Assembly: GCA_030710605.1 (NCBI GenBank)
Contig: CP092882.1
Span: 23,548,824-23,612,823, forward strand
Direction: 5' to 3'
Length of the DNA: 64,000 nt
Source: Cordylochernes scorpioides
Lineage: Eukaryota; Arthropoda; Arachnida; Pseudoscorpiones; Chernetidae
Position numbers and translations under genes: made by a program. The notes under the pieces are model-generated. The model was given only the letters and a program-made list of their open reading frames with translations. It was not told the DNA's origin and did not search any database. This document shows, in pieces, positions 11,962 to 62,330 of the stretch (the stretch's first letter is position 1; the number at the start of each line of letters is the position of its first letter).

Positions 11962-11999
11962 CGACTGACGAGGGCCATTAGCCCGAAATTATGGTCTCT
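11962..11999 (+). ncRNA. hammerhead ribozyme, family B, decayed stem I
   Basis: Core CTGACGA at 11965-11971, stem II GGGC/GCCC around loop CATTA, GAAA next, then a short stem III and GGTC before the expected cleavage point. Stem I is poor (about two pairs), so self-cleavage is doubtful for this copy. Confidence 0.65.
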
Positions 12000-12167
12000 A
12001 GCTGAACGCTTCTCTGTTTTCCATAGCTGGAATTGTGGCTTTTTCAAAGACCCGGTTGTAAAGACGGTTAATAGATGACGCCTAGTTTTGGAGTCTATTT
12101 TGACGGTAGAGGCGATCTTTATATTCTTATAGATTATCATCATTAAGATGAAAAATTCCCATATATA
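11962..12167 (+). repeat. family B hammerhead retroposon, 5' truncated
   Basis: Starts at the ribozyme and runs through the family B body (TTGTGGCTTTxTCA, GACGGTTAATAGATGACG, TCTATTTTGACGGTAGAGGC). Related copies: 33897 and 48273 (plus strand), 60990-61176 and 61310-61455 (minus strand). Its right edge abuts the solo LTR. Confidence 0.75.
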
Positions 12168-13404
12168 TGTCGAATCCTGTCGACTTTCTTTCTTTAGCTG
12201 TGGTGATTCGGTAGTCTGGTCTGTTGTATTGATTCGTGGGGAAAGATGATCATTGCGCAGTCGTGATGGTGGTGAGTGGTAAAGCACACAGAGACGAATC
12301 ACAGGGGAATCCGAGGCATCAGAGAGAGGGAAGGCAGAGACCAAGTAGCGGCCGGCGGGCCATCCACTAACGAGTTGTCTGCTACTGCTGTCCGCTATCT
12401 TGCATCTACTGAACTGACAGACTGAGAGAAAATAAGGATAACCCGGGCCCCTGGAGCGCAAGAAACGCCAACTGCCCGGGCTGTTCATCTAACTAGTAGA
12501 AACCAGTTACTCTAGATTATATTTACATAGAGCCAATTGCAGAGCCGAACCAGCTGGTCAGGAAGGTCCATGCCTGCAGAGAATCCGGGAGTCCAGCCAA
12601 CGAGACTGGGTCGAAGGAAGTCTTCCCAAGCAGCAGGGCTGTCTGCATTCTGTGACGCATGAAAGCAGGGCATCTGAATAGAAGGTGGTCCACAGTCTGT
12701 TGTTCCTCCATACAATGTTGGCAAGATGGGTCTTCCCCAGGATGCCAGAGAACCAAGTCTGCCAGAACATGGCCATGTCCTGTAAGTAAGGTGGTGGTGA
12801 CTTCTCCAGGACAGACCTCAGGGAGGAATTGGAGCAGCCGGTCTGGAGTATGGGCTATTCTCCTCAGGTGTCTGTTGGAGTGGTCCCGGCAATAAACCTC
12901 CTTTCGTGCATCTAGGGCTACCGTGCGTGAATGGTTACGGGCCAGGCTTCTAGGCAGGATGGAAAATGATGGCTCTAAGGTCGAAACTGCCGCCTTCTTA
13001 GCAGTTCTGTCTGCTCTTTCGTTTCCGTCGATGCCGCAGTGCGTGACTGACTGCGGGGCAAGCCCTTTTTATATGCTCGAGTGTTACGTCGTCGGACGTC
13101 TGGCGCCATGGCGTCGGCGGGACGCTTGACCTTATTTGGCTGCGGGTAAGTCCTGTTACGTCATTTTATTGGCGCCGCGTTGACGCGACGGTTGACCTCA
13201 TGGCTGCGGGATAAGCCCTTTTGGTTTCTACGTTCCCTCTAGATGTACCTCTATATTTTATTGAACACACAAAAACGATACATGCAAAGTTAAATTGATC
13301 AAATGAGGATTGGGTACAATGATTAAAAGACCATATTAGAGTAGGGGGTGTAAGAAGTGGTGGTGAGTATTTACACAGGTGTTTATGATTCTTAAATTAC
13401 CACA
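12168..13404 (-). mobile_element. solo LTR split by a LINE
   Basis: On the minus strand it starts TGTGGTAATTTAAG (13404) and ends GATTCGACA (12168). It is flanked by TATA at 12164-12167 and 13405-13408, a 4-bp target duplication. It is homologous to the LTRs at 55248-55803 and 59455-60085. Removing the LINE (about 615 bp) leaves about 622 bp, close to the 631-bp LTR. It keeps the TATAAAAAG promoter segment that is missing from the LTR at 55248. Confidence 0.85.
12430..13045 (-). pseudogene. LINE ORF2 C-terminus (RNase H tail and zinc motif)
   Basis: Read on the minus strand, translation begins in an RNase H motif (HCGIDGNERAD) and runs with no obvious break to a C-terminal C-Q-H-C...H-L-L-F-R-C motif (12630-12700 region), ending at a stop near 12520. 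The 3' tail follows to about 12430. This is a 5'-truncated I/jockey-group type non-LTR retrotransposon inserted in the same orientation as the LTR that contains it. A short repeat (CAGTC) at both edges may be the target duplication. A second copy of the same family ends at 26335. Confidence 0.85.
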
Positions 13405-13413
13405 TATATATAT

Positions 13414-13630
13414 TATGAAAATTAGAAACTATTTTAGACGCGTAAGATTCTTTTTGAAATTAAACAATTTCTACTCCTCTTACTGCAATGAAAAATTAAT
13501 GGGAGGGCCTGGCTCATCAGTGGTGAACCCTCTCAGCGGTTTCGCCAGTTTAATCTACCATACCGCTGTTATATTGCATTTTTTAAATCTTCCTTTTTAG
13601 TGATACTGTTGCTAGACTTTTGGAATGGAT
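13414..13630 (-). repeat. F1 retroposon
   Basis: Minus-strand F1: TATGAAAATTAGAAACTATT at its 3' end, then the CTGGCTCATCAGTGGTGAAC block, and the GTGATACTGTTGCTAGAC end beside the Helitron boundary at 13632. Confidence 0.8.
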
Positions 13631-13640
13631 ATCTATATAT

Positions 13641-13980
13641 TGTTACATCATGATTAATAGCGTATTTCTTATATTATTTTTAATATATTTGAAATTTAAA
13701 TTATATATTTATTTATTTTTATATTCTATGATATTTGTTTAAAACAGATTATTTAGATTATCATCATTTGTATTTAGGTACACGTGTGACTTCACTGCTC
13801 TCTTAAATGTGAGAAAAATAAATAAATTATTCTGGAGGCTCTCTACTTAAAGTAGACTTATCTCATTATTCCCTTATATAAATTTGTAGGATGGTTGAAA
13901 CACGCTCTGCAAAGATGCAAGACACGTCTGAGGAGAGACTCAAGACTGAAGAATCTGCCAAACCGCAGCCCAGTGCAACA
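13641..13980 (+). repeat. 5' LTR of gypsy element
   Basis: Begins TGTTACATCA and ends CAGTGCAACA. A TATA box (CTTATATAAA) lies near 13874-13883. The gag ATG at 13891 and another in-frame ATG at 13915 fall inside the LTR. Because transcription normally starts about 25-30 bp after TATA, the second ATG is the more likely translated start. Confidence 0.95.
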
Positions 13981-15052
13981 ATTGGTGGAGATGCAAGTGC
14001 CGACCCAGTTGTTTTGAACCCCAACATAGACATCCCCAAATATGATGGAACAGAAGACCCTCGCCCATGGATTGAGTCCCTTGAAGAAATTGGCTTCCTG
14101 TACCACTGGGCAGAATATATTATTTCTCGCTATGCAGCCATGAACATGATTGGTAGCGCCAAAACCTGGCTGGACCTACACAAGATAAGTTTTACCAGCT
14201 GGGAACATTTCAAGAGCCCCCTAATTCAGGATTTTGGCTCAGACGCCAACAAAGAAGAATTGAAGATGAGGCTGAACAGAATGCAGCAGTGGAATGAACC
14301 TGCAATCAGGTTTGCAGAGGATATCCTGGTTCTGTGCAACAAGGTCGATCCCCAAATGGAAGAAGAGAATAAAATAAATTGGGTTATTGGAGGGTTAAAG
14401 AAAGAATACTCTTTTGCCCTCTACTTAAACCCTCCTAAGAATACCAACGAACTCCTAAGATTGTGTAAAAAGATGGATTTGTTTGAAAATAATTATCAAG
14501 AACGTATAGAAAAATCAAAGGCTCTATATAATGGACCACGCTCTCCTCGTTCCCATCATCAAGAGCAATGGAAGAACGCTCCGTCGTTCAGAAGACCAGA
14601 CCAGAACACCTCCAAGCCACAGGCCCCCGCTCCGAGGTACTACCAGAACACCCCCAAGCCCCAGGCCCCCGCTCAGAGGTACTACCAGAACAAGCCGCTG
14701 CCCCAGGTATCTGCCCCTAGACGATTTTACACTCCCATTCATGAGCCAAAACCGGTCTACCCAAGGAAAAAATACAATGAGTCCAGATTCAAACAGGAAT
14801 AGGACAGAAGACGGGAGACCAATATGTTTCAAGTGTAACAAGCCAGGACACGTAGCGCGGTATTGCAGAGTCAAGTTTGTGAGGATCGTAGAAGAGGACC
14901 CCTCAGTTTCCCAAGACAAGAGCCAAGAAAACCTTCAAATGGACGAAAGGAAAGATTATACACGGCCTCGCCTCTATGCGGATGTTTGTAATGACACACA
15001 AACGAATATTCCTACACGGAATAGATATTCCGTGTTGGAAGATTTAAACTAA
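13891..15052 (+). pseudogene. gag: gag (capsid and nucleocapsid), frameshifted
   Basis: The first frame (13891-14802) encodes an N-terminal acidic segment and a capsid-like region of the Retrotrans_gag type (FxxDxxxLxxKxDPQMxEExK pattern), followed by three short Pro/Gln/Arg/Tyr-rich repeats (residues about 230-275, PKPQAPAxRYYQN). The nucleocapsid zinc knuckle, C-x2-C-x4-H-x4-C, is at 14825-14866 but in the +1 frame, which runs to 15052. The switch must fall before 14802. It could be a programmed +1 shift, but its position ahead of the zinc knuckle favours a mutation. Confidence 0.9.
13983..13994 (+). promoter_or_regulatory. primer binding site, tRNA-Ala
   Basis: TGGTGGAGATGC begins two bases after the 5' LTR. 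It is complementary to the 3' end of animal tRNA-Ala (GCATCTCCACCA, with the characteristic G3-U70 acceptor). The site lies inside the gag reading frame. Confidence 0.8.
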
Positions 15053-15478
15053 GTGTCGCGCCTGATTCCTTCAATCAAAGCAAGTCGACCATAAATGGAA
15101 TTAGAAAGTTGGACCCTAGGTACAAAATTAATATTAATGTGGACAAGATAGGGTTATGCGAAGCTTTGATTGATACAGGCGCCGATCTTTCAATGGTCGA
15201 CCTAAGAACAGCACTTTTTGCTGGCCGTGAAATAAATAGTCTCACTAAAACGTGTTCAGGACCCGATGGGAAAAAAATTAGATATGGTAGGTAGCATTAT
15301 TTTAGATTTAAAAATTGATGACACTGAATTATCCCACGAATTTGTAGTAATGGACGCGCATCTACGAACTCTTATTCTTGGACGAGATTTCCTTAAAAAA
15401 AATGAATGCTAAAATTGATTGTAAACGAGAAACAATAAAATATAATTTGATGAGTAATCATGACGTAAGCAATTATGA
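15053..15478 (+). pseudogene. aspartic protease, frameshifted
   Basis: The active-site motif LIDTGADLS is at 15166-15192 (Asp codon 15172-15174), and the second conserved motif (LILGRDFL) at about 15368-15391. Between and after them the frame changes at A7-A8 runs near 15271 and 15394, and again near 15482. The protease would process Gag-Pol. As read it cannot be made as one chain. Confidence 0.85.
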
Positions 15479-17407
15479 TCTAAAAAAATAAAGAGCACTA
15501 CAGATACCGTTATACCTAAACTATCTATTAAATTGATTAGGGCCTCAATAGAAGCAGAGGATGGCGAATATGTCATCGAAGAGAACAACAGAATGACTCA
15601 AACAAATGGTCTTCGATTGGCAAGAAGTTTGCTTACTGTCACGGATAAGAAAACCCATATCTGGATAACGAACCCTTATCCTCGACCTTTAAAAATCATG
15701 AAAGACCAAACATTGGCTTATGGAAGTCTTCCTGCAGGGGTAAATTTTATAGAGAATAAAGAGAAGCAGAATGAAAATGACGAAATACAATTTCAAATAA
15801 ACAAAAATTTATTATTTAAAGAGCAAGAGAGGTTAAAACAAATTTTGGCCAAGTATACTGATTTGTTCTCATCGAGGTTAGGTAGGACCAATTTGGCAAA
15901 ACATCAGATTCATACAGAAGACGCAAAACCGATAAAGCACAAGCCTTACCGGGTAAGCGCTAAGGAACGAACCATCATAAAGGATCAAATAGACGAGATG
16001 CTCGAAGAAGGAATAATTAAACAATCTTCAAGTCCCTGGTCCTTTCCCGTTATATTGGTCAAAAAAAGAGATGGCAAATACAGATTTTGTGTGGACTACA
16101 GGAAATTAAATGAAGTAACAGTGAAGGATGTTTATCCAATCCCAAGAATTGATGATGTAATGGATACTCTCCAAGGATCCAAGTACTTCTCAGCAATAGA
16201 TCTCAAATCGGGATATTGGCAAGTCGAAATTGAAGAGAGAGACAAAGAGAAGACGGCTTTCACTACTGCACATGGGTTATATGAATTCAACGTAATGCCC
16301 TTCGGTCTATGCAACGCCCCTGCTACTTTTGAGAGGAACATGGACAATGTCCTCGGAAATCTGAGATGGCAGATTTGCCTTTGCTACCTGGACGATGTGA
16401 TTATATACAGCTCGGACTTTCCAACCCACATTAAAAGACTTGAAGCTGTCCTCAGATGCTTCAGCGAATCTAATTTAAAACTGAACGCCAAGAAATGCAG
16501 ATTTGCTTTCGAGGAACTTGAGATCCTTGGACATATAACCAACCAAGAGGGTATAAAACCTGCCGAATATAATATCAAAGCCGTTAGAGATTTTCCTCAG
16601 CCCAGGAAGGCCAAAGAAGTGCAATCATTCCTAGGAATGTGCTCATATTATAGAAAATTTATTAAAGATTTCTCATTAATCGCTGACCCATTGACCAGTC
16701 TCATCAGAAAAAATGTTCAATTTATCTGGACAGGAAAACAGGAAGAAGCGTTCCAAAACCTTAAAAAAGCTCTTATGAATCCGCCAATTTTAGGTCACTT
16801 TGATCCAAATGCAGCCACCTGCATTCACACAGATGCCTCTAACATCGGCTTAGGCGCAACACTAATTCAAAATATCGGTGGCGAAGAGAAGGTAATATCA
16901 TATTTGAGCCGAACCCTAAGTAAACCTGAGCAAAATTATTCAACCACCGAAAAGGAATATTTAGCTGTAGTGTGGTCGATATCAAAATTACGGCCCTATT
17001 TATATGGAAGGAACTTTAAAATCGTCACTGATCATCACGCACTATACTGGCTTAAGAATTTAAAAGATCCGACCGGCCGATTAGCACGATGGGCACTGAA
17101 GATTCAGGAATATAATTTCGAAATTATACACAAATCGGGAAAAAAACATCTGGACGCTGATGGTCTATCTAGAGGACCCTTACCAGAAAACGAATGGGAC
17201 GAGGATTATGAAAGACTATTTTTGAATCAAATAATAGACGAAAAGGATGATTTTATTGAGAATATTAAGGAGAACCTTAGTGGAAACAAGCGTTCAATTA
17301 CACAGAACTTTAAAGAAGAAAATGGGTGTCTCTACAAGAAAAATCCAAATCCTGAAGGTAGAGAATGGTTGCTGGTAGTGTCAAAGAAGAAAGGAAAGAA
17401 ATCATGA
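15479..17407 (+). CDS. pol: reverse transcriptase and RNase H
   Basis: One long frame without internal stops. Reverse transcriptase: SPWSFPVILVKKRDGKYRFC (16030-16090 region), MPFGLCNAPATFER, and the catalytic YLDD at 16385-16396. RNase H: first Asp in HTDAS (codon 16832-16834), the TEKEYLAVVWSI helix, and TDHHAL (about 17027). The frame is open from 15479 just after a TGA and has no obvious start, as expected for a polyprotein segment reached by readthrough or frameshift. It ends at 17407 in an A/G-rich stretch where the integrase continues in another frame. Confidence 0.95.
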   Translation, partial: SKKIKSTTDTVIPKLSIKLIRASIEAEDGEYVIEENNRMTQTNGLRLARSLLTVTDKKTHIWITNPYPRPLKIMKDQTLAYGSLPAGVNFIENKEKQNENDEIQFQINKNLLFKEQERLKQILAKYTDLFSSRLGRTNLAKHQIHTEDAKPIKHKPYRVSAKERTIIKDQIDEMLEEGIIKQSSSPWSFPVILVKKRDGKYRFCVDYRKLNEVTVKDVYPIPRIDDVMDTLQGSKYFSAIDLKSGYWQVEIEERDKEKTAFTTAHGLYEFNVMPFGLCNAPATFERNMDNVLGNLRWQICLCYLDDVIIYSSDFPTHIKRLEAVLRCFSESNLKLNAKKCRFAFEELEILGHITNQEGIKPAEYNIKAVRDFPQPRKAKEVQSFLGMCSYYRKFIKDFSLIADPLTSLIRKNVQFIWTGKQEEAFQNLKKALMNPPILGHFDPNAATCIHTDASNIGLGATLIQNIGGEEKVISYLSRTLSKPEQNYSTTEKEYLAVVWSISKLRPYLYGRNFKIVTDHHALYWLKNLKDPTGRLARWALKIQEYNFEIIHKSGKKHLDADGLSRGPLPENEWDEDYERLFLNQIIDEKDDFIENIKENLSGNKRSITQNFKEENGCLYKKNPNPEGREWLLVVSKKKGKKS

Positions 17408-18519
17408 GTGAATACCACAACCATATGCTGAATGGCCATCTGGGCGTCGCCAGAACCACATACCGATTGAAGAATAAATACTATTGGCCTTCCATGCTGA
17501 AAGATGTTTCCGAATTTGTAAAGACGTGCCATCTTTGCCAAAGTCGGAAAGGTTCAAATCAGTTGCCATCTGGACTTCTACAACCTATTCCCCCAGCTAA
17601 CTACCCTTTTGAAAGAATCGGAATTGACTTTGTTGGCCCCTTGCCATCAACGAAAAGAAGAAGGAAATGGATAATTGTGTTGACGGATTATTATACCAAG
17701 TATGCTGAAACAAAGGCAGTACCAGAAGCGACAGTGAAAGAAGTCTCTACATTTTTAATCGAACATATATTTTTACGTCACGGGGCTCCAAGATTTCTTA
17801 TCAGCGACAGAGGTTCACAATTCACTAGCAATTTGATGAAGGAGGTTATGAAAATGTGCAAAGTTAAACATTGCTTCACAACGAGCTACCATCCCCAGAC
17901 TAACGGGCTAACGGAACGGCTAAATAGAACTTTAATCAATATGATCAGCATGTATGTGAATACGGATCAGAAGAACTGGGACGAAATCCTTCCTTTTATC
18001 ACCCACGCGTATAATACCACAATTCAAGAAACCACAGGCTACTCTTCATTTTTCCTGTTGTTTGGGAGGGAACCCATGTCCCTCTTATACGACGAGAATA
18101 TCCCAACGGACAGTAACATGGACGATTACGACGAATATATAGAAAACTACTTAGATAAAATAGCAAGGACGAGACAGGTAGTCATTAACAACACAGAGAA
18201 GACTCAGGAAAGAATGAAAAGAAACTATGACAAAAAACACAACGAGAGAATCTATGAACCAGGACATTTAGTGGCAGTTTGGACACCAGTTAGGAAAATC
18301 GGAAAATGTGAAAAACTATTGAGAAAATATTTTGGCCCATATAGAATATTAAAGAAGCTGTCCAACGTAAATTACTTAATTGAACCAAAAGATAATCCTG
18401 GCCAAGACCCATTGATTGTCCATGTCTCAAGAATCAAACCCTATTTTGAAAGAATTGATGAGGTCAATCACGAGGACGTGACGACCTCTGGAGAGGGGGA
18501 AGTGTTGCATCATGATTAA
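17365..18519 (+). CDS. pol: integrase
   Basis: N-terminal HHCC zinc domain (H-x3-H in HNHMLNGH, and CHLC at 17527-17538). Core D,D35E: Asp 17626-17628, Asp 17806-17808, Glu 17914-17916 (35 residues between the last two). C-terminal GPY/F module (YFGPYRI near 18328-18348) follows. There is no chromodomain. It joins the reverse transcriptase frame by a shift at about 17380-17392. The stop lies 17 bp inside the 3' LTR. Confidence 0.95.
   Translation: MVAGSVKEERKEIMSEYHNHMLNGHLGVARTTYRLKNKYYWPSMLKDVSEFVKTCHLCQSRKGSNQLPSGLLQPIPPANYPFERIGIDFVGPLPSTKRRRKWIIVLTDYYTKYAETKAVPEATVKEVSTFLIEHIFLRHGAPRFLISDRGSQFTSNLMKEVMKMCKVKHCFTTSYHPQTNGLTERLNRTLINMISMYVNTDQKNWDEILPFITHAYNTTIQETTGYSSFFLLFGREPMSLLYDENIPTDSNMDDYDEYIENYLDKIARTRQVVINNTEKTQERMKRNYDKKHNERIYEPGHLVAVWTPVRKIGKCEKLLRKYFGPYRILKKLSNVNYLIEPKDNPGQDPLIVHVSRIKPYFERIDEVNHEDVTTSGEGEVLHHD
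18490..18502 (+). promoter_or_regulatory. polypurine tract
   Basis: GGAGAGGGGGAAG lies directly before the 3' LTR. It is the plus-strand primer and is inside the integrase frame. Confidence 0.85.
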
Positions 18520-26567: not shown

Positions 26568-27877
26568 CAAGGTATGTCCCATAAGTTCCCGGACTGGGTC
26601 CATAAAAAAAATAAATAAATGAAAAATGTAAATGAATTTGACTGTTTATTATAGAAAAAATATCTGGCTACACGGTGGTACCAATATCGAGGCGGTACTT
26701 GCGCGCGCGCCAAAGTTATTCTAATTTATTTAAAGGTCACACCTAGCGCTGCGGCGATTTTACGATGGAACAAAAATTGAAGCAGAGGATTTGCATAGAA
26801 TTTTGTGTTAAACTTCAAATATCAGCAACCGAAACTTTTGAAATGCTTAATAAGCATTCCCCAATGACGCCCCAAAGAGAACAACTGTTTTTGAATGGAA
26901 TTCTAGATTTAAAGCTGGCAGAATTTCCATTGAAGATGATCCTCGTCAAGGATTCCCAAAATTTCAAAGGACTGATGAAAATGTGCAAAAAAATCACCGA
27001 TTTGATAAAAGAAAATCCTCGAACCACTTTGCTGGAGCTAGAGCAAGACACAGGCATCTCTAAAACAACGATTGGAAGGATCGTAACCGAAGATTTGAAG
27101 CTCAAAAAGACTCCTGCAAAATTCATCCCAAGATTCCTCACCAATGAGCAAAAACTGTGTCGGCTTGCAACCTGTGAGGACATGATGGAAATGACAAGAG
27201 CGGATCCAGAATGGAAAGACAAGATAATCACAGGCGACGAGACATGGGTCTATGGCTATGACCCTGAAACCAAACCTCAATCTGCCGAGTGGAGAGGTTA
27301 GAGTGAGCCTAGACCCAAAAAATCCAGAAACAAGGTGTTGCTGGTCGCTTTTTCGGATAACAAGGGCATTTTTCATCACGAGTATCTTCCTGCAGGCCAA
27401 ACAGTTATTAAGGAAATGTATTTGGGCATTCTTCGCCGTCTAAGGGAAGCGATTCGAAAAAAAAGGCCAGAAAAATGGACTAATGGTAGCTGGATCCTAC
27501 ACCATGACAATGCTCGCCCTCACACAGCGCACTTGATGACTAGCTTTTTGGCGAAAAACGGGATACAAATCCTACTTCAACCACCCTATTTCCCAGACAT
27601 CGCACCAAATGACTTTTTCCTGTTCCCCAAACTTAAAGCAGTTCTAAAAGGAAGACATTTTGACACCAGGGATGACATAATAGAAAAATCGCCGTTAGCA
27701 TTGAAGAGCATTCCAAAAGAGGCTTATAAAAACTGTTTCGACAATTGGGAGAAACGATGGCGCTGGTGCGTTGAAGCAAGGGGGGATTACTTTGAATAGT
27801 TTTAATAAAAAAAAAATAAAAAAAATCTTACCTTTTTTTTTATGGTTTCAGTCCGACAACTTATGGGACATACCTTG
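26568..27877 (+). mobile_element. complete mariner transposon, 1310 bp
   Basis: Terminal inverted repeats (CAAGGTATGTCCCATAAGTT at the left, complement at the right) are flanked by TA at 26566-26567 and 27878-27879. Size, TA target and D34D catalytic spacing all fit mariner. The repeats differ by a few bases beyond position 20. Confidence 0.95.
26765..27799 (+). pseudogene. mariner transposase with two frameshifts and a stop
   Basis: It starts at an ATG near the expected distance from the left repeat (MEQKLKQRICIEFCVK). The helix-turn-helix region is split: the conserved FEWNSRFKAG..EDDPRQG segment (26890-26965) is in another frame, entered near 26856-26863 and left at the A7 run near 26984-26990. 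Catalytic residues: Asp 27236-27238 (GDETW), Asp 27506-27508, Asp 27611-27613 (34 residues between the last two). An in-frame TAG at 27299-27301 precedes the PRPKKSR segment. Active as read: no. Confidence 0.95.
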
Positions 27878-28075: not shown

Positions 28076-28325
28076 TAGAGCGGTCTTATTGATTAAGTTC
28101 GCGAAACTTTTGGGGATATCTATCAATGAGCCAAGTTATTTCCTTAATTTACACTTATGGGCAAAACTTTGAAAAGTGTAAATTCTTTGACGTCGTCAGT
28201 TATATGTTTTTATGAAGTAGACAGAGGTAATTTTGTTCACACTTGGTTATCTCGTATGTATTTAAAAAAGGTTATTGTAATATCTTTCAGAGTTATTGTC
28301 TGAATACCGATATACATTAAAAACA
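28076..28325 (-). repeat. decayed F1 piece and family D repeat
   Basis: 28076-28145 resembles F1 (GCGAAACTTTTGGGG, ATCAATGAGCCAAG). 28180-28325 is family D on the minus strand (ACACTTGGTTATCTCGTA, TCTTTCAGAGTTATTGTC). Confidence 0.5.
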
Positions 28326-28326
28326 A

Positions 28327-44919: not shown

Positions 44920-46195
44920 GACTTTAATTTCATAACATCCTACATGAGGAGTTATGGAATCGGTCGAATTTATCGAACAGGTGGTTAAGCTGGTGAAATG
45001 GCAAGGGGCGGTATACTAAGTGGCCGTTATCTGAATTTTCCAAAACTAGTGTTGGGGCTTATTCTTTATCACCACTGGTAAAGTTTCTTTCTATAGTGAT
45101 TAACAAAATGTATTCACTTCTAATGTATAATTTAAGGAGGATAGGCATCTCTAGGTACATAATTATAATCCTCCCACAGTCTTACGTCTCAATATGTGTA
45201 TCGGAATGATTCCACACCATTCTAACAAATATATTGCTTATCATACAAGTTTACAACAAATTCCATCGAAAATAATGCTATGTTTTGACATATCGACATA
45301 CAATATTCCAAAACATATCTCTATATTAACATTTTAAACAAATATATTTCATAGAACTTTCCTACAAACAGATTTTAATCCAACATATGACTTACAACAG
45401 CCACTATAGCACTATCTAACCCATCAATACCACAACACATCGTCTATATAGATAGAAAGACAGACAGACAAACAATCACCGTCTAATTGCCCGTCTCATC
45501 GTTAGAAGCAGTCTCAACCATTAATCTCCTCTTCTATCTAGATGGCCCAATATGGCATTTTTCTGGGATTAAACTCTCCTTTTAAATCCTAATTGATATT
45601 TGGGGGCCATGTAATGGACGCGCCCTTTTCCTTCTTAAGAACAACCAAGAGAAGCCTTCGTAAAATCGTTTTCTCTCTCTTCTTTTTTTGTTCTTCTCTC
45701 AATTTTCTTCTTCATCTTGTTATTGTTTGGCGCTTGTTGGAGCGGTTTAATTGCAAGGATTAGCTTTCAACTGATCCCCAAATTGGCCAGCTTGTCTGTC
45801 TCCCCTCCATTGAAGTTGTTAACATGGAGTTGTGGATCACAAGCCAAATTTGGGAGGATCAAGAGATTAACCAGTTTGTTCTTAATTGTCCGAACTTGAT
45901 GGGACCTCTTAAATTTCTTGTTAACAGGCACTAACTTGGAAAAAACAAAATGATTAAATGTGTTTTCGGTCAATTTATTCTACAATTTATACTCCTACTG
46001 AAGTGGAACACAAGTAACTCTGCAATGGGAAGTTTGAGCAGAGAATTTTAGCATGTTATATATACTCAACAATTTAAATATTCATTCGATTTTTGATTAT
46101 TCATTAGTTTACATAAACAGAATATAAATATAAGGGATTAGAGCGCTCTCTATTTATACAAAATAAATTGCTATATATAAATATGCTATATATAT
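44920..46195. other. unassigned sequence
   Basis: No supported gene. 45640-45900 has a moderately long frame that is not recognised. Confidence 0.4.
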
Positions 46196-47290: not shown

Positions 47291-47604
47291 ATATATATTT
47301 TAAATAAAATAATATTTTTTATATAACATATATATGCATCCATATACGCTAATTTGCATAGTTTCTTCAACTATCCTAACCAGGAATACCGTTCGAGTGA
47401 CTGCTAAATAACCAGAATAGCTCAATACAATAGTAGATACTTACAGTAACATAAACTGCCTAAACCACTAAGAGGGCTTGCAAATGATGAGCCAAACCTT
47501 TCCAATTTATTTCCATTACATTAAAGAAAATTGATAAAGTTTTATTTAAATTCAATAAAATTGCGATATAATTTTATATAAATATCTAAAAACCTTAGGC
47601 AATA

Positions 47605-47905
47605 ATTAAGAAAAAGGCATCTCTCCTTATCGTGCAACTGAAGTTTCTGATGGCTTGCGCCATCTATCGGAATAAATATCAACTATCAACTATTTTGGTT
47701 GATTTTTAATTATTCCAGAATCATNNNNNNNNNNNNNNNNNNNNNNNNNNNNNNNNNNNNNNNNNNNNNNNNNNNNNNNNNNNNNNNNNNNNNNNNNNNN
47801 NNNNNNNNNNNNNNNNNNNNNNNNTTTCTCGATAAGGAGATGCCTTTTTCATAATGTATGCACCTTATCCCATTACAATATCACATTTGTACTATTTTTA
47901 TACTT
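47605..47905. repeat. F3 palindromic retroposon with gap
   Basis: Left arm from AATTAAGAAAAAGGCATCTC to 47724, right arm after the gap from CTCGATAAGGAGATGCCTTT to about 47852, followed by the conserved GCACCTTATCCCA flank. Confidence 0.8.
47725..47824. other. assembly gap of 100 N
   Basis: Exactly 100 N, a placeholder size. It falls inside the inverted repeat F3. Confidence 1.
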
Positions 47906-48272
47906 AGGAAATATTATTTCCTTTATTGCAATACACCGCGAGCTTTCGAGATCTTGTTCTTCAACATGCGAAATTAAAACTGAGAGTGAACACGGTAGGG
48001 ATAGATTTACTCAATGATGGCATTTTATACTGCGTTTTTGGATATGTGAGAATTAAATAATGATGGCCATTTATAGTCGATTTGTGATATGGCAGAATTG
48101 CTCTGGGAAGTCTATTCATCTGTTTATACCGTTCCTTTTCTGATATTCGAAACCCTCATATCGAAATATAAGAACAGTATAAACAGAAACCACACAATAT
48201 CGGCTTGGTGCCTCTTTGGTAAATTCTGAAGATTTCATGAATTTTTCACCATTCTTATGAAATCAAAGCCCA

Positions 48273-48322
48273 CCCTTGGATTGACGAGGGCTATAGTCCG
48301 AAAACATAGTCTCCAGGAGGGC
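48273..48322 (+). ncRNA. hammerhead ribozyme, family B
   Basis: Stem I CCTTGGA/TCCAGG (six pairs including one wobble), core TTGACGA (C3 to T) at 48281-48287, stem II GGGC/GTCC with one wobble, GAAA at 48300-48303, GTC at 48309-48311 before cleavage. Confidence 0.7.
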
Positions 48323-48470
48323 TTTGTGATTTCGCGAAAATTGGTTTTGCGGATGTTTGACCGAGTCTGATAGTTTTCAAAGACGGTCAAAGAAATGTTC
48401 ATTAGTTTTTGTGTCTATTTCAGGGAAGTGATGGCATTTATTTTTATAGATCAATATACTCCCATCAAAA
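48273..48470 (+). repeat. family B hammerhead retroposon
   Basis: Ribozyme, then GGTTTTGCGG, TTTCAAAGACGGTCAAAGAA, TTTTTGTGTCTATTT and GATGGCATTTATTTTTATAG. Homologous to 11962-12167. Confidence 0.7.
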
Positions 48471-48779: not shown

Positions 48780-49060
48780 TTTGATGAAAATGGATGGATG
48801 AAAATGGCCGTTGGTTCGTAGAGGCGTCCAAAACAATGGTTTCCTCCCCCGTGTTTACACGTCACCACCGCCACGCATGCGCCGACTTAGCGTACACGGC
48901 TGGCAAAGGTGGTGGCGGTTGAAAGGGCTGTTCAAAATTGGCGGTGGGTCAAAACGCCGTCACAATATAAACATCAAGATTATTCCAACTATATACACAT
49001 TTCGAGATATTTGCCTACATCAGCGTGTTGCAGGCTGTAGATAAACGAGCAAAAAGCTGG
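48780..49060. repeat. GC-rich block with weak hammerhead-like motif
   Basis: CpG-rich compared with its flanks. The minus strand reads CACGCTGATGTAGGC, then CTCGAAATGTG. Core and stems are too poor to call a ribozyme. It looks like part of another retroposon family. Confidence 0.35.
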
Positions 49061-49309
49061 TGTTAGAAGTTTCCTGAAAAGCCAAGGAATAGGTAGTTGA
49101 AGTAAAATTCGCATAAATACCATTATATTAAGTGAAATGGAAAAATAATAAGGTCAGGTAAAAGTGATATTAATTCTCATTTGACGTTCAGGATGTTTTA
49201 TTTATTATATTGCCTGACCTCCTTTACACTATTTTTTACCTTTTTCATTTCTTTTACATATATGAATATCGTTATGAAAATAAAGCAATTCATAAATAAA
49301 TCTTCAATT

Positions 49310-49448
49310 AAAAAGGCATATTTTGGGTCAAAATATAATTTATTTTATCAATGTTCCAGTTGGCTGAACGCCAATTAATAAAGATTGGCGTTTATCGAAC
49401 TGAAATATTGGTAAAATAAATGATATTTTGATCCAATATATGCCTTTT
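49310..49448. repeat. F2 palindrome, short spacer
   Basis: AAAAAGGCATATTTTGGGTC to CCAATATATGCCTTTTT. Arms meet at TAATAAAGATTGGCG; the core is partly lost. Confidence 0.8.
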
Positions 49449-49469
49449 TAATTAAAGATATGGAAATAT

Positions 49470-49687: not shown

Positions 49688-50223
49688 TAAATACCCATTC
49701 CAAGAGTCTAGCATCAGTATCAATATAAAAGTAAGATCGAAAAATTCAATATAACAGCGGTATTTTTTAATTTTTTTATTATCATTTACAAAGCACGCGA
49801 TATCCGTCTTGGATATTTGCATGCATACACAAGTTTGGGAGCTTTTACAGTAATTATTAATATGATTTTAGTTATTATAATAGAAATTATTAACGTATTT
49901 GTCAGTTAGTTAACGATTTAATTACCCTATAATGAATATTAGTGAACATCACAGTTAAGAACAGAAATTTAGAGTTATTTACAGCATATAACTATTTACC
50001 ATTTATTACAGCCCAGGCTATCTATTACTAAAAAACATTCTACAAAATCTAATTATAGATTGGTATGGTATATTCAACTGGCGAAACCGCTGGGAGGGTT
50101 CACAACTGATGAGCCAGGAGCCTCCAATTAAATTTTCCATTGCAGTAAGGGCAGTAGAAATTGTTTAATTTTTAAAAGAATCATACGTTTAGTAATTAAT
50201 TAATAATAGTTTCGAAATTTCAT
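49688..50223 (+). repeat. F1 copy with 297-bp insertion
   Basis: F1 runs 49688-49764 and 50062-50223. The piece between (49765-50061) starts with a T run and is bounded by GGTAT at 49760-49764 and 50062-50066, a likely 5-bp target duplication. The inserted element is not recognised. Confidence 0.6.
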
Positions 50224-50243
50224 ATATGTAAATATTAAAATAA

Positions 50244-50443
50244 AAAAGCATATTCTGACTACGAGCATATTGGACTTTTAAATAGCAGAGCACCATCTAG
50301 TGTTCTTGATTTATTAAGAAAATGAGTTGTCCAAATATCAGGGAACATGGTTAAATCAAAGTTTAGTTCATTTCTGTTCAACTAGATGGCGCTCTTCTAT
50401 CTAAAAAGCTTATGTGCTCGTGGTCAGGATATGCCTTTTATGA
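50244..50443. repeat. F4 palindromic retroposon (family A 3' ends)
   Basis: Inverted arms AAAAAGCATATTCTGACTAC and GTGGTCAGGATATGCCTTTT. The right arm runs through CAAATATCAGGGAACATGG and CTAGATGGCGCTC. The junction lies just downstream of where the ribozyme would be. Confidence 0.8.
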
Positions 50444-50539
50444 TTTTAATAGCAACACCCGAACTTTTTTATTAGTTTATTTTGATATTATTTTTCATAT
50501 ATGTATACTAATAAAGTAAAGCACGAAGGAAGATGAGTT

Positions 50540-55816: not shown

Positions 55817-56740
55817 ATGAACAAGGACGAAAAAGAACCCCGGGAGCAAGAGATTGGAGAGTTCCCCAACAACGACCACGGACCGACAACACCACCACTC
55901 CATCTTGGCACCATCATCCTTCAGTTGGCAACCATCCTAGAAAGACTGCAACCCCTTCATCCCCGAGACCTTGATCTACCCGCCTTTGATGGTATGTACA
56001 ACGCTTCATCTTTCTTTAAGAACTTTAACTACAAACTCAGAACTTAACCCCTCAACAAAAACTGCAAACACTTCCCAAATACCTTGTTAAGCAGCCCCTC
56101 GATCTTTTTAGACAACTCCGACTTGATACTAAGCCGTATGAAGAAGCGCAGAGAACCCTAGAGGACTTATTCCCAGATAAGACCGACACAACCTACGCGA
56201 AAATTTTCGCTACAAAATCTCAACATTATAACTCTCTTGAAGAGTACTTTAGGACCAAGGCAACGTTAGGGATACAATTGAACTTGCCAAGACCTGTCAT
56301 CATAGAGGCCTTGACCGAAGGACTGCCCACTGGGGATCAGCGCCTTGTTCGAGTTGTGCCTCCCAAGTCACTTTCCGAGTGGTATGAACTAACCTCAAGG
56401 GTACGAGTAAACTTCTCCCCACAACCACTACGTGGCCCAGACAACCCTCCACGGATGGAAGGACCCTACCACAATACCCCACGACCTCCACCACGGGCAC
56501 AAAACTACGCAGCAATGCCACCTTCCCCCTGCAAGTTCTGCCAGGGATAACACTGGCACTCTCAGTGCCAGCAACGACCAGCTTCTAACGCCCAGCACGG
56601 CCAAACCTACCACGCCAGCCACAACCGCCAAGGCACCTTCAACCAAAACAACAATGGCCGCCAGACGACACCGTCTACTGCACCAGCCGCCCCGACGACA
56701 AGCTACACTAGCCCCAAACAGGTAAAGAATTACCCTAATT
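55817..56740 (+). pseudogene. gag: gag of the deleted LTR element
   Basis: Starts at ATG 55817 (MNKDEKEPREQEIGEF), stops at 56045-56047, then continues in the same frame through a capsid-like region (FATKSQHYNSLEEYFRTKAT, about 56205-56265; ALTEGLPTGDQRLV). A zinc knuckle follows, C-x2-C then H-x4-C (56530-56570), broken by a TAA at 56548-56550, and then a Gln/Asn/Thr/Pro-rich tail. At least two nonsense codons. Confidence 0.8.
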
Positions 56741-56779
56741 TTCGGTAATAACCTTATCTTAAAAGTCCTCCTCAATCAC

Positions 56780-57110
56780 AAACATTTCCTTCCTTTTCTA
56801 GCTGAAACTGGCGCAACCGTAAATATTATACCATTAAATACCTTTAATTTCTTTAAAAAAATCTTAACACACAAAAAATAGAATTAATTAACGAGCACAT
56901 TCAAATTAGTTCTATCTCACAAGGTATTACCACCGCAGGCTATGTTTATCTTCCGGTAACCTTAGGCAAAATAACAGAAAAGATCATAATTTATGTCATA
57001 GATTCTAAGCTTTCATTTGGTATACTTTCAATAGATACGCTTAAAAAATTTAAATTGCAAATTAATTTTCACGAATTCTTTATACTTCAAAATAACTCAC
57101 CCTTAGGTAA
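56780..57110 (+). pseudogene. aspartic protease remnant
   Basis: AETGATVNIIP (about 56803-56835) corresponds to the active-site motif with Glu in place of the catalytic Asp. FGILSIDTLKKF (about 57016-57051) corresponds to the ILG motif. Frame breaks lie between them. Confidence 0.65.
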
Positions 57111-57469
57111 AAATGTGTATAACCTTTCCCTTGTTCCACGTGCATGTGCTTATTGGGAATGCCAGCGACATTTCAAGGCATTCCAAACATCTCTGCGCTC
57201 ATGTTGCAACCAATCAGCACATGCACTAACCACAAAGAACTATTCCTTTTCAGAAAAATGTCAATGTTATTTTTTATCTCCCACAACCCTTGTTAACCCC
57301 AATTGCTAGCTAACTGATGCGCGAACTGAATTGTCTCACCCTAATTTTCCGACCCAATTTAATCTCCTATTGCATAACAATCAACACATATTTTCTGAAA
57401 ACAAATTTGATGTCCCCACGTTAAACATTCCCCCCGTCAAAATTGACACTTCTTCTGACAAATAATTAC

Positions 57470-57740
57470 ACTCAGGCCATACAGAGTTCCTTATTACGAC
57501 CTAAAGGAAATTCAAAATCAAGTCGCCGAATGTTAAGACACAATTTTAGAAATTATTTCTCCCAATGTGGTAAAGATTAATAGACCAAATCAACCGCTCA
57601 ATAAGGAACACGACACAATACATGTCAACAAACTCAGGCCCTACACAGAAAGCGTCCCTCATATAGCACCCCCCACCATGCAGGCCCATTATGTTCAACC
57701 CAAAGACAATGACTCATTTCCGTTCCGACATCTCTAACCG
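57470..57740 (+). pseudogene. reverse transcriptase start joined to integrase tail
   Basis: RPYRVPYYDLKEIQNQVAEC (57475-57535) matches the region just before the reverse transcriptase palm in Ty3/gypsy elements. A short distance later HVNKLRPYTE (about 57622-57651) resembles the sequence after the integrase GPY module. Everything between, including all catalytic domains, is deleted. Confidence 0.6.
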
Positions 57741-58046
57741 GACTTGTTCCAAGAATACCAACTCCCGATCAAACCAGCCAGTAGCCAACCTCTTCTACCT
57801 CTAACCCCAAATCTTTTTACCCTAATCCAAGTAGAACCGACTTCAAGTAACAATGCTTCCCCAGCTTCCCAGCTACAAATCAATCATGAATCAACCCAGT
57901 CCCAAGTCAAGTCATCAACCCTCCAACATAAATGGCTCAGCCCACAACTAATCTCTCTCATAAAAAATATAGGATACGATATGAAAACATTTTTTACACA
58001 CTAACAATGCCCTTCTCCACCTCCCGCTAATCACACTTATCTACAT

Positions 58047-58402
58047 CTATATATATAAAATTGAATGTTTGTATGTTTGTTTGTTTGTATGTCCTGTATA
58101 CAAATTCGCAGTAGTTCACTAATTCAAACCAAAATTTCCATACATAGGTAAAAGAATACGGGGAAGACGATAGGCTATTTTAAAAAATATATAAATCAAT
58201 TATTAAAACTATATATTCAAATTATTCTACTTAGCTCACGAACAGCGCCCTCTATCAAATATTAGATTAAATTATGCTGATGCAAACAAATAGATATAAT
58301 GCTAATAACAAACAATTATAAAAAATCTTATCTAGATATATATCACTCGGGTAGATATGCACACGGATCTATCCCGGGGCGAAGCCCGGGTCACCCGTCT
58401 AG
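58047..58402 (+). mobile_element. Helitron-like non-autonomous element, 356 bp
   Basis: A|TC at 58046/58047 with TCTATATATATAAAATTG, hairpin CCCGGGGCGAAGCCCGGG about 11 nt before CTAG (58399-58402), and T next. Complete ends, no coding capacity, inserted in the LTR element. Confidence 0.75.
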
Positions 58403-59454
58403 TAGGAATATACGCACAAGAAACTGATAGACTTTTTCAACTACAAGAAGCCATTTTCCAACTACTTACCATCATCTGGATTTTGATAGGAGAAACCGTT
58501 CAACGTCTATTTAAAACTTCCCCACCACCTACGTCCTGACAACTATTTCCCTTACATCACAGATAACTTATCCCAACCTTATTTTATTTGTACCCCACGT
58601 GTTGTACCATACTACCCCGCAACTATCTCCCTTAAAACCAATGTCTTGTCGCAATGCTGCACAGTGATTCGTTTGTCAACCTATGTACCCACACATTTTT
58701 TTCTCACCCTATGTTACCAATGCAACATGTTTTCAAGCGATCTTTAAAACCTAAAGTGGACTTGTTTACAAATTTTAATCAATGTTTTTCCATTGTCCCA
58801 CTTTTGTAAATATCATTATATTTTAATTTTGTTTCACCATTTTTCTTTTCACACTTCTCAACTTCTGCAATTGGTTTCTCTCAACAACCACGCAATTACC
58901 TTGCCTTTCACCAAACCTTACCACCTTAGCGGATCTTTTCACCACCAGCGCGACCCATGTATTTGTCAGTTTATTTTAATGTGATGTTTTTCTTTATGTT
59001 TTTTTAATGTTCATTTTTTTACACTTACATAAATTCCCTTGATGTAGTTTGTCCATACACCAAGATTAAATACTCTGCAGGCATTTTGTTTTTTTCACTC
59101 ACTCACCATCGCGCTATGTTCATTCTTTTTTTTTTTTTCACCCAAGACCGCTAAGTAGAGAACAATAGTTTTTTTTATCCTTTGTTAACTAGTTCCAAGA
59201 CGTCATAGCAAAACGCCTTGCAAACCCATGTTCTCAAGCTGATCCTGCTGTCAACCAATTTAATCATCATGTCATTCTTTTAACAGTTCCTACTTCATCT
59301 TTCCATTCTGTCACCTTGTCGACCGCAACTTCTTACCACCCTGTAAATAGCTTTGTTTGTTTACCCAATTAATTTTCCCCAAAAATTACTTCCCAACTAC
59401 CAGAATTCAACTCAGGCTGCCCCTTTTTAAATTCTTCAACGCAGGGGGCCCATC

Positions 59455-60085
59455 TGTGGTAATTTAAGAATTATAAACACCTGTGTAAATACTCCCTACC
59501 CCTTCTTACACTCCCTACTCTAATATTGACTTTTAATCATTGTACCCAATCCTCCTTTAATCAATTTAACTTTGGTTGTATCGATTTTTAGTGTTCAATT
59601 AAATAAAGAGGTACATCTAGAGGGAACATAGAAACCAAAAGGGCTTACCCCGCAAACATTAGGTCAACCGTCGCGACGCCATGGCACCAAACGTCCGATG
59701 ACGTAACAGGGCTTTCCCGCAGCCAATGAGGTCAACCGCCTCGACCCCACGGCGCCAGACGTCCGGTGACGTAACACTTGAGCATATAAAAAGGGCTTGC
59801 CCCGCAGCCAAAGTAGTCAGTTCAGCAGATGCAAGATAGCCGACAGCAGCAGCAGACAGATCGTTAGTAAGTCTTTGTGAACGGGGTGGATGGCCCGCCG
59901 GCCGCAACTTGGTCTCTGCGTTCTCTCTCTCTGATACCTCGGATTCCCCTGTGATTCGTCTCTGTGTGCCTTACCACTCACCACCATCACGACTGCGCAA
60001 TCATCATCTTTCCCCACGACTCATTACAACAGACCAGACCACCGAAATACCACAGCTAAAGAAAGAAAGTCGGCAGGATTCGACA
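59455..60085 (+). repeat. 3' LTR, 631 bp, full promoter
   Basis: Contains GAGCATATAAAAAGGGC (TATA near 59784) within an 85-bp segment missing from the 5' LTR, and AATAAAG near 59602. Confidence 0.9.
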
Positions 60086-60226: not shown

Positions 60227-60290
60227 TCTAAAGATTTAAATATGGATTGCTTTATTTTCAGAACGATATATGTTGTATATAAACATTATA

Positions 60291-60562
60291 ATTAAGAAAA
60301 AGGCATCTACTTATCGTGCAACTGAAAGTTGCTGATGGCTTGCGCCATCTATCGGAATAAATATCAGCTTGCACCACGCTGATGAGGGCCAACAGCCCGA
60401 AACGCGTCCGTGGTTAGCTTTTCTTGATTAATCAAGAATGAGTATTTGGCCAATTCTGGAATAATTAAAAATCAACGAGAATAGTTGATATTTATTCCGA
60501 TAGATGGCGCAAGCCATCAGCAACTTTTAGTTGCACGATAAGTAGATGCCTTTTTCTTAATT
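60291..60562 (+). repeat. F3 palindrome carrying a hammerhead
   Basis: Arms 60291-60366 and 60482-60562. The loop holds the family A 5' module: CAGCTTGCACCACG, the ribozyme and GCTTTTCTTGATTAATCAAG. The right arm has TAGATGGCGCAAGCC and ends AGATGCCTTTTTCTTAATT. Confidence 0.9.
60374..60413 (+). ncRNA. hammerhead ribozyme, family A, intact
   Basis: Stem I CCACG (60374-60378) with CGTGG (60409-60413), perfect. Core CTGATGA 60379-60385. Stem II GGGC/GCCC around loop CAACA, perfect. GAAA 60399-60402. Stem III from palindromic ACGCGT. Cleavage is expected after GTC, between 60408 and 60409. All conserved core positions are intact. Confidence 0.9.
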
Positions 60563-60985: not shown

Positions 60986-61121
60986 TTGTCCATGGAAGCA
61001 ATGGCCGCCTCTCCCGTCAAAATAAACGTCAGAAACTGACGCCATCTAATGACCGTCGCCGCAACTAGCGGCATCGGGTCGGTGACAAAGCCACAACACC
61101 AACTTTGGAAAACTGCTAAGC

Positions 61122-61176
61122 GTCCACCTAGAGACCATGGTTTCGGGCTAATGGCCCTCGTCAGTCTAGGGCGGAC
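61122..61176 (-). ncRNA. hammerhead ribozyme, family B, intact
   Basis: Minus strand: stem I CCTAGA/TCTAGG (six pairs) extended by GTCC/GGAC beyond a small internal loop. Core CTGACGA intact. Stem II GGGC/GCCC around CATTA, perfect. GAAA. Stem III from palindromic CCATGG with A-T closing. GTC before cleavage between 61133 and 61132. This is the best-formed ribozyme in the window. Confidence 0.92.
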
Positions 61177-61440
61177 TTTATTCCATGAGATCCACCCGGG
61201 ATTTAATGGAATCCTCACAATCTACCAAAGAAGTGTTTTGCTGGCAATGTGGCTGGGCCAAATCTATTGGCAAAACATAGATGGGAAATTTGCCGGGAGG
61301 AAATTAATCCATGGAAGCAATGGCCGCCTCTCCCGTCAAAATAAACGTCAGAAACTGACGCCATCTAATGACCGTCGCCGCAACTAGCGGCATCGGGTCG
61401 GTAACAAAGCCACAACACCAACTTTGGCATACTGATAAGC

Positions 61441-61458
61441 ATCCACCTAGAGACCATT
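61441..61458 (-). ncRNA. partial hammerhead, 3' half only
   Basis: Minus strand ATGGTC then TCTAGGTGGAT matches the end of the ribozyme at 61122. The core and stem II are replaced by unrelated sequence. Confidence 0.6.
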
Positions 61459-61660
61459 TGTGTACAGGAAAAACAGACAAAAAATTAGTAAAATGGTCAG
61501 GTGTTAATATTCTATAAAAAAAGGCATATCCTGACTGCTCCCAAGAATATTTTAGATGGCAGAATGTTATATAGTGAAACAAAAATTATATTAACGTTGA
61601 TTCAGCCTGTTCCCTGATATTTGGCTAACCCATATTCTCTATAAATTTGAGAAAAACAAA

Positions 61661-61698
61661 CCACGAACGCGTTAGAGCTGTTGGATTTGTCAAAGTGG
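61661..61698 (-). ncRNA. decayed hammerhead, family A
   Basis: Stem I CCAC(T)/CGTGG partly kept, core TTGACAA, CTAA in place of GAAA, ACGCGT and TT before CGTGG. Not expected to be active. Confidence 0.55.
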
Positions 61699-61738
61699 TG
61701 CAAGCTGTATTTAAAAATAAATTAATATGTGGGTATCT

Positions 61739-61877
61739 AAATTTGAAAGCTATTTTAAAGGCGTAAGATTTTTTTTTTTGATATTAAACAATTTCTACTG
61801 CCCATACTGCAATGGAAAAATTAATGGGAGGGCTTGGTTCATCAGTGGTGAACCCTCCCAGCGGTTTCGCCAGTTTA
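61739..61877 (-). mobile_element. F1 copy with 12-bp target duplication
   Basis: Flanked by ATGTGGGTATCT at 61727-61738 and 61878-61889. The right flank continues the host family A sequence (GAGGCTAAATTTG). Confidence 0.85.
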
Positions 61878-61964
61878 ATGTGGGTATCTGAGGCTAAATT
61901 TGACGAATAGGCTAAACATATGCAGAAATTATAAGAATGATCAAGTGTTGATATTGAAATCAAA

Positions 61965-62040
61965 AGAGGGAAATAACCTGACAACTTACATGACCATTTC
62001 AGTCGGCAAAGTGCCATATAGAATATGCCTTTTTGTTGTT
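61965..62040 (+). repeat. family A/F4 3' end, diverged
   Basis: AAATAACCTGACAAC...GTGCCATATAGAATATGCCTTTTT, a diverged terminal module. Confidence 0.5.
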
Positions 62041-62079
62041 AGCATCAATATCTAACCATTTTCTTATTATTATTTATTA

Positions 62080-62330
62080 TTATTATGATAAGCGTATTTG
62101 CGCAAATTTGGCCTCGGAAACCAATTTATTGATTTCTCAGGAAATCTCTTGGATCCAATATTTGAACGATGAGTTACAGCTTGCATCACGCTGACGAGTC
62201 CAACAGCTAGAAACGTGTTCGTGGTTGGCTTTTCTTGATTTATAAAGAAATTGGTTGACCAATAATCATGGAACAAGCTTAAATCAAAGTTTAGTTGATT
62301 CTTGTTTCACTAGATGGTGTTTTTTAAAAT
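62080..62330 (+). repeat. family A hammerhead retroposon
   Basis: AAGCGTATTTGCGCAAATTTGG leader, ribozyme, GGCTTTTCTTGATTTATAAAG, CAATAATCATGGAACAAGCT and CACTAGATGGTG. The usual terminus is lost. Confidence 0.8.
62187..62224 (+). ncRNA. hammerhead ribozyme, family A, weak stem II
   Basis: Stem I TCACG/CGTGG (four pairs plus a wobble), core CTGACGA 62191-62197, stem II poorly paired (GTCC against GCTA), GAAA 62210-62213, ACGTGT and TT before 62220. Confidence 0.7.

Follow-up and report, generated by a model that had tools for sequence, protein, structure and literature searches.

Hammerhead retrozymes of the pseudoscorpion Cordylochernes scorpioides bear a Penelope-type insertion signature

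Short repeats that carry a hammerhead ribozyme motif, and no enzyme of their own, raise the question of which machinery copies them into chromosomes. The stretch of DNA analysed here (the window) comprises 64,000 nucleotides (nt) of contig CP092882.1 of the pseudoscorpion Cordylochernes scorpioides (assembly GCA_030710605.1, positions 23,548,824 to 23,612,823 of the forward strand) and holds several such repeats. A sequence-only reading of the window had described two repeat families, named A and B in the following, each with a type I hammerhead core and the stems in the expected order; repeat comparison and reading of the cores bear out both points. Its proposal that these are non-autonomous retroposons of the Penelope or retrozyme kind agrees with the dispersed copies, the head-to-tail units of 319 or 334 bp, the variable 5' and fixed 3' ends and, where they can be read, the target duplications of 8-10 bp. 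With good confidence, families A and B are regarded as non-autonomous retrozyme retroposons, and the reverse transcriptase (RT) that inserts them most likely comes from a Penelope-like element (PLE). Their inverted head-to-head architecture and their two-site tail are evidence that points specifically to PLE machinery.

Anatomy, targets and template of the insertions

Family B is the younger of the two, with a unit of 319 nt and a G+C content of 49.5%. Its unit is numbered from the base after the predicted cleavage bond of the hammerhead (position 1 is window 61132, minus strand). Of 2556 candidates from the genome, the 40 that were scored yielded 149 matches. These fall into 40 loci, which are the best-scoring ones and not a random sample. 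The best match in each locus is about 97-98% identical to the window copy. Units follow one another head to tail, up to 3.8 of them in one arm, and the arm lengths range from 54 to 1221 nt. By anatomy, 27 of the 40 loci are head-to-head insertions with both ends present, 11 are single-armed and two (L081 and L094) are incomplete at the edge of the sequence examined.

The outer ends of the head-to-head loci are the 3' ends of the arms. In all 27 loci one arm ends at a site S1 (unit 139-145, around 141) and the other at a site S2 (unit 170-176, around 175), S2 being on the left in 14 loci and on the right in 13. The single arms end at S1 in eight cases, at S2 in two and at unit 150 in one. The inner junctions take 27 different pairs of positions among the same 27 loci, and 43 of 67 whole arms have their 5' end at unit 80-132. 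The right arm begins at unit 92 in all four of L079, L083, L086 and L092, which differ in their flanks, and in L062 the arms are separated by 143 nt of foreign sequence. Family B insertions thus have fixed 3' ends that differ from each other, and a 5'-5' junction that varies inside a preferred zone.

Family A is older, with a unit of 334 nt and a G+C content of 37%. Its genome search scored 40 of 5136 candidates and gave 41 matches, of which the 40 other than the query are 81-88% identical. Insertions of both families are dispersed across many of the 24 contigs. Six of the ten head-to-head candidates of family A retain both ends, and the tail is present on one arm only in all six (window 50232-50473, L005, L021 and L028; also window 60290-60562 and L023, where the A60 subfamily tail was judged by eye). 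One end has been lost in L022, in window 61490-62321 and in the near-duplicates L015 and L018. The insertions in the window are the following.

60989-61457, minus strand: family B retrozyme with one arm only, 469 nt or 1.47 units (unit 319 nt) long, 3' end at S1 (unit 144), 5' end at unit 314
11963-12114, plus strand: old family B arm beginning at the hammerhead core, 77% identical to the unit
33832-34055, plus strand: old family B relative, 68% match
48213-48364, plus strand: old family B relative, by unit mapping
60290-60562, both strands: family A (A60 subfamily) head-to-head insertion, minus arm 60290-60369, plus arm 60370-60562, tail-like sequence only on the right
61490-62321, both strands: family A head-to-head insertion, minus array 61490-62021, plus arm 62020-62321, tail at the left end, right end lost
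28316-28663, minus strand: family A, one arm only, about one unit long and ending (3') close to S1
32469-32660, plus strand: family A arm truncated immediately upstream of the hammerhead core and ending (3') close to S1
50232-50473, both strands: family A head-to-head insertion that lacks a hammerhead core, minus arm 50232-50302 tailless, plus arm 50303-50473 tailed

The arms of 60290-60562 are 80 nt long and 98% complementary, their outward ends having been compared by eye. Other sequence breaks the minus array 61490-62021 at about 61711-61880. Another repeat (GGCGAAACCGCTGGGAGGG...), recognised by eye, occurs at 61764-61880 and at 50060-50200, the former copy lying in the gap of this array. 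The old single arms at 32469 and 11963 belong to different families, and both begin 2-3 nt before the hammerhead core CTGACGA. The open frames of at least 110 aa in the window include one of 115 aa across the B units (61040-61387, plus strand), which is not judged to be a gene.

The family B insertions prefer AT-rich targets. An (AT)4 motif lies within 20 bp of a 3' end, on either side, in 30 of the 40 loci, compared with 1.0% of the 20-mers of the window. Exact target duplications of 8-10 bp that are not pure (AT)n were found in seven of the 27 head-to-head loci (L056, L070, L073, L076, L077, L083 and L085; that of L083 is off by one base). No poly-A tail is seen at the printed ends of the head-to-head loci.

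The hammerhead cleavage bond is crossed by 58 of the 67 arms, and only three have their 5' end within 5 nt of it, where 2.1 are expected. Because most arms cross the bond and reach up to 1221 nt (3.8 units), a monomer linearised by cleavage was not what usually served as template. With 30 nt trimmed off the 5' end of the arms and 5 nt off the 3' end, copies of the unit differ by 0.65% between the two arms of one insertion (39 pairs), by 0.71% between the laps of one arm (30 pairs) and by 1.47% between different insertions (3320 pairs). When 21 arm pairs were re-paired 1000 times, the closeness of the actual pairing was never reached. This likeness of the arms fits one RNA, probably a circle, that was primed by both target strands.

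Hammerhead motifs in the window and in the genome

A strict descriptor (CUGANGA, stem II of at least 3 bp, GAAA, A15.1-U16.1 and one more pair, H17 not G, stem I of at least 4 bp) matches the window at two places only, 60379 (plus) and 61164 (minus), and 100 dinucleotide shuffles of the window gave four matches in total (0.04 per window). These are the sites 60374 and 61122 that the sequence-only reading had put forward for testing; both are intact by the descriptor, but support from Rfam is absent at the gathering score. A covariance search of the whole window with the Rfam models, which that reading had proposed as a check, returned no hammerhead either at the gathering score or at E<=10 over the 64 kb. 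When 2 kb were searched, the former site was matched by Hammerhead_HH9 (60363-60428, 26.5 bits, E=7.7e-4, below the gathering score of 52 bits) and the latter by no hammerhead model. RF00163 gave 0 matches in the own genome, where 74 of 285298 candidates were scored, and none in a control genome either.

Because the Rfam models miss these sites at the gathering score, a model (R1) was made from 24 family A copies from elsewhere in the genome, with the window copies excluded. It draws on 24 of 29 non-window loci, leaving out L010, L018 and L020 as near-duplicates and L021 and L023 for their insertions, and its E-values are rough. R1 recovers eight of the ten sites named before at E<=0.014; 48273 is marginal at E=1.1 and 33897 is missed. 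It also finds two decayed sites absent from that list. The sites 61661 (minus) and 62187 (plus), listed as separate copies, are true family A but form the two arms of the one insertion at about 61490-62321. The hammerheads of the window are given below.

60365-60423, plus strand: family A hammerhead, R1 86.7 bits, strict descriptor match, core intact with GUC cleavage triplet, HH9 26.5 bits; predicted cleavage bond between 60408 and 60409 (plus)
61118-61178, minus strand: family B hammerhead, R1 E=3.9e-7, strict descriptor match at 61164, core intact, fold z -2.53; predicted cleavage bond between 61133 and 61132 (minus)
61651-61707, minus strand: decayed family A hammerhead in the minus array, R1 41.5 bits, broken core
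62177-62234, plus strand: family A hammerhead in the plus arm, R1 72 bits, core retained, stem II mismatched (62191)
28468-28526, minus strand: family A hammerhead, found by R1, stem II mismatches (28512)
32459-32516, plus strand: family A hammerhead, found by R1, truncated at stem I (32472)
11965-11990, plus strand: old family B hammerhead core, R1 E=0.003, truncated at stem I
44864-44924, minus strand: decayed family-B-like hammerhead, R1 E=0.014, GACA instead of GAAA, broken core (44875)
48267-48326, plus strand: hammerhead of an old family B relative, R1 E=1.1, stem I paired, UUGACGA instead of CUGACGA
33897, plus strand: hammerhead site of an old family B relative, missed by R1, UUGACGA instead of CUGACGA
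44440-44494, minus strand: decayed hammerhead absent from the earlier list, R1 E=5.9e-6, CUAAUGA core
48978-49037, minus strand: decayed family A hammerhead absent from the earlier list, R1 E=9.7e-5, CUGAUGU core

The model comes from family A and matches family B at E=3.9e-7, which is the best evidence for the same fold in B. In the B loci L067 (six R1 matches) and L078 (four) the hammerhead occurs once per 319-nt unit. In 34 copies of family A the core columns are 98.4% conserved, compared with 89.4% for the other columns of the hammerhead region. Ten hammerhead regions were also folded alone and compared with shuffles. Only 61116-61178 (z -2.53) and 48260-48330 (z -3.00) are in clear excess, so that folding energy carries no case for the other sites. 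The stems of family A have 91.4% of their cells paired (8 of 500 shuffles as high), and the covariation score was reached by 14 of 500; pairs changed on both sides number 2, against 2.9 in shuffles, which makes covariation in these stems mildly favourable and undecisive. Judged by sequence comparison, the hammerheads of families A and B are real, and self-cleavage itself is predicted.

Penelope-like elements and the route of insertion

A genome search for the GIY-YIG domain scored 150 of 17015 candidates and gave 146 matches. The PLE at locus L097 has an open frame of 646 aa that contains RVT_1 (E 1.4e-8) and GIY-YIG (2.7e-6); the protein gives nothing at E<=0.01 against the PDB. Its head-to-head arms are identical for 588 nt outward, and then a tail follows on one arm only. 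A tail of this type is also found in L099, L103 and L104, where, as read in L104, it extends for about 34 nt up to (AT)n. A hammerhead motif lies upstream of the tailed end of L097, by pattern match and reading. The 3' pieces of seven further GIY-YIG loci, inspected by eye, show a hammerhead pattern match in L103, L104 and L105, a changed core in L099 and L102, no pattern match in L100 and one that resembles chance in L101. Neighbouring GIY-YIG matches within 10 kb of each other are divergent in 11 of 11 pairs among the 146. A second type of PLE is found at locus L096, whose frame carries CxC and GIY-YIG close to its beginning and whose head-to-head arms of 1.8 kb are 98% identical; we take it to be Naiad-like. 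The window itself contains a PLE remnant at about 34190-34340, of which 34230-34307 is 82.5% identical to L097 2619-2696, the 3' part with the hammerhead motif. The hammerhead core of this remnant is changed, and the PLE tail stands in mirror orientation just to its left.

The start sites of A, B and L097 are all 3' of the hammerhead and near a stem-loop, the stems being GGTCAGG...CCTGACC (A), CTGGCCG...CGGCCAG (L097) and CGGGAG...CTCCCG (B). On folding of single examples, the stem is present in L002 (A), in unit B and in L097, and absent in L104 and in L025, a tailless copy of family A. As far as these comparisons of sequence go, a common layout of the start sites is suggestive only.

The minimal PLE hammerheads that Cervera and de la Pena (2014) and Lunse (2017) are said to have described have a two-pair stem III with a two-base loop. 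Family A is like them in both traits. Family B, unlike them, has a three-pair stem III and is nearer to the canonical retrozyme hammerheads.

The anatomy of known PLE is close to that of the two families. According to the text available of PMC3846280, Pen2a of Adineta vaga has inverted pseudo-long terminal repeats (pLTR), a 31-bp tail that is optional on one of them and a target site duplication of 8-10 bp. The accessible part of PMC11167929 describes, for Poseidon PAc of Anolis, a PLE protein that cleaves both strands of AT-rich DNA, and explains the tail by two adjacent internal RT start sites, a signature termed unique to PLE. As these two sources present them, PLE and families A and B share the head-to-head inverted repeats, the tail of 30-40 bp on one arm, the duplications of 8-10 bp, the AT-rich targets and a hammerhead upstream of two internal RT start sites. 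Unlike PLE, the units of A and B (319-334 nt) have no RT or endonuclease and are too short to code for RT and GIY-YIG. The tail pairing is strict in 27 of 27 two-ended B loci, whereas these papers, in the parts available, call the PLE tail optional.

The following route, in which self-cleavage, the circularity of the RNA, the action of the PLE protein in trans and the order of the steps are what we infer, would give such insertions. A tandem copy would be transcribed, and its hammerheads would cut the RNA into units of 319 or 334 nt that would then be closed into circles. The PLE protein would bind a circle and cleave both strands of an AT-rich target with a stagger of 8-10 bp. Both target ends would prime reverse transcription at internal positions of the RNA, one strand using S1 and the other S2, which lies 34 nt further 3'. 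From there each enzyme would copy back round the RNA, often beyond one lap, and the two complementary DNA molecules would be joined at their far ends. The result would be an inverted multimer in head-to-head order, whose fixed, unequal 3' ends face outward and whose 5'-5' junction varies. The strict pairing of S1 and S2 argues that the two first-strand starts are coupled, which is not shown in the available text of PMC11167929. That each insertion takes one S1 and one S2 start, coupled on one circle by a pair of PLE enzymes, one per target strand, with no site used twice, has in our estimate an even chance of being correct.

Several points weigh against this account. The strict one-of-each pairing of the ends exceeds anything seen in vitro, and, as far as PMC11167929 could be consulted, the strands do not differ there in their start site. 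In the same partial text hammerhead mutants still insert in vitro, so that insertion may not require the hammerhead. L096-L105 contain no hammerhead that R1 finds, the PLE hammerhead resting on pattern match and reading. L097 has no blast match to units A and B at E<=0.01, and no start-site sequence shared with A or B is shown in any PLE here (L097 by blast, the seven further GIY-YIG loci by eye). Single arms make up 11 of the 40 B loci, and these 40 are the best-scoring of 2556 candidates, a non-random set. In the other 20 head-to-head B loci the flank matches are uninformative in 19, lying within or beside (AT)n, where a target duplication cannot be read, and some of them mismatched; L095 has none. 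The untrimmed comparison of arms, which was run first, gave no difference (mean 1.66% inside a locus and 1.72% across loci, with 195 of 300 re-pairings giving as low a value), a result that we attribute to misaligned bases at the palindromic junctions. Gene conversion, or two RNAs transcribed from a single source locus, could also account for the likeness of the arms.

The template could also be an uncleaved multimeric transcript of a tandem locus, with no circle and with cleavage irrelevant to insertion, which is compatible with PLE machinery. The in vitro insertion left unchanged by hammerhead mutants, as given in the part of PMC11167929 at hand, is in keeping with this, and genomic tandem units would yield multimers. 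The conservation of the core in the 34 family A copies is left unexplained by it. Arms and laps are equally alike, as from one circle, but units of one array would be alike too. We hold this template to be possible, if doubtful.

Long interspersed nuclear elements (LINE) offer another source of the enzyme, with a LINE RT inserting the retrozyme RNA and the inversions being ordinary 5' inversions. Such twin priming likewise yields inverted, 5'-truncated inserts with target duplications, and the 5' ends of A and B are indeed variable. In twin priming the inverted piece begins at a varying internal site; in the 27 head-to-head B loci both outer ends are fixed and are always the two different ones, and no poly-A tail is seen at the printed B ends. 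This source is improbable. Foldback or miniature inverted-repeat transposable element (MITE) type DNA transposons, moved by a transposase, with a hammerhead by chance and the mirror arms as terminal inverted repeats, are most improbable of all. Inverted arms with short target duplications do resemble such elements, several of which occur in the window. A DNA transposon is expected to retain its interior and ends, however, and the B arms span 54 to 1221 nt of their 319-nt repeat, have unequal ends and show 27 different junction pairs.

Insertion of A and B by PLE machinery can also be set beside other systems. The metazoan non-LTR retrozymes (Cervera and de la Pena 2020, PMC7229834) are, in the portion of that paper available, alike in their type I hammerhead, tandem units of 170-400 nt, dispersed copies, G+C content under 50% and target duplications longer than 4 bp. 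An inverted, opposite or head-to arrangement, as in A and B, is not mentioned in that paper's text. The pairs of short interspersed nuclear elements and LINE are alike in that a short non-coding RNA is copied by the enzyme of another element. Families A and B are unlike these pairs in that no poly-A is seen at the printed ends, the template extends beyond unit length and both outer ends are 3'. In the open-licence literature, as far as its text was accessible, no report of head-to-head retrozymes with a PLE tail was found.

Neighbouring features of the window and meaning of the signature

Short mirror-image (MITE-like) repeats lie at 2422-2589, 36812-36991, 40202-40443, 42907-43269, 47602-47864 and 49300-49459. 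Their outer ends read ATGCCTTTTT or a near form, as in family A, and sites of the form ATGCC[ATC]TT[AT]T number 16 in the window compared with 2.5 in simulated sequence. These repeats may be short head-to-head insertions made by the machinery of families A and B.

A nested inverted repeat at 31501-32088 (183-nt arms, 94%; 78-nt arms, 100%) overlaps a tRNA-Thr(GGT)-like gene at 31717-31792. The stretch 7670-9224 holds a satellite array with a 73-bp unit and longer periods, followed at 9167-9224 by a tRNA-like piece resembling the one at 31719. Open frames of up to 642 aa at 13882-18519 encode Ty3/gypsy-like gag and pol, and two open frames at 26747-27799 a mariner-like transposase, both named by protein appearance. 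Several of the miRNA-like Rfam matches in the window fall on inverted repeats and were set aside. The GC skew is -0.32 at 56001-60000 and between -0.12 and 0.05 in the other 4-kb steps.

What is new here is the PLE-type insertion signature and its strictness; the elements themselves join the retrozyme kind as new members. The available text of PMC7761336 considers PLE likely candidates and describes animal retrozyme repeats as having no motif that reveals their autonomous partner. The paired S1/S2 ends of A and B supply a motif of this sort, which bears on the enzyme that copies animal hammerhead circles into DNA and can be sought in any retrozyme-bearing genome (corals, mussels, axolotl). Some mirror-image repeats filed as MITE may be insertions of the A and B kind. 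If the two starts are coupled on one circle, animal retrozymes would be circular-RNA parasites of PLE, and the 'optional' PLE tail would record a two-site, two-strand reaction that is obligatory.

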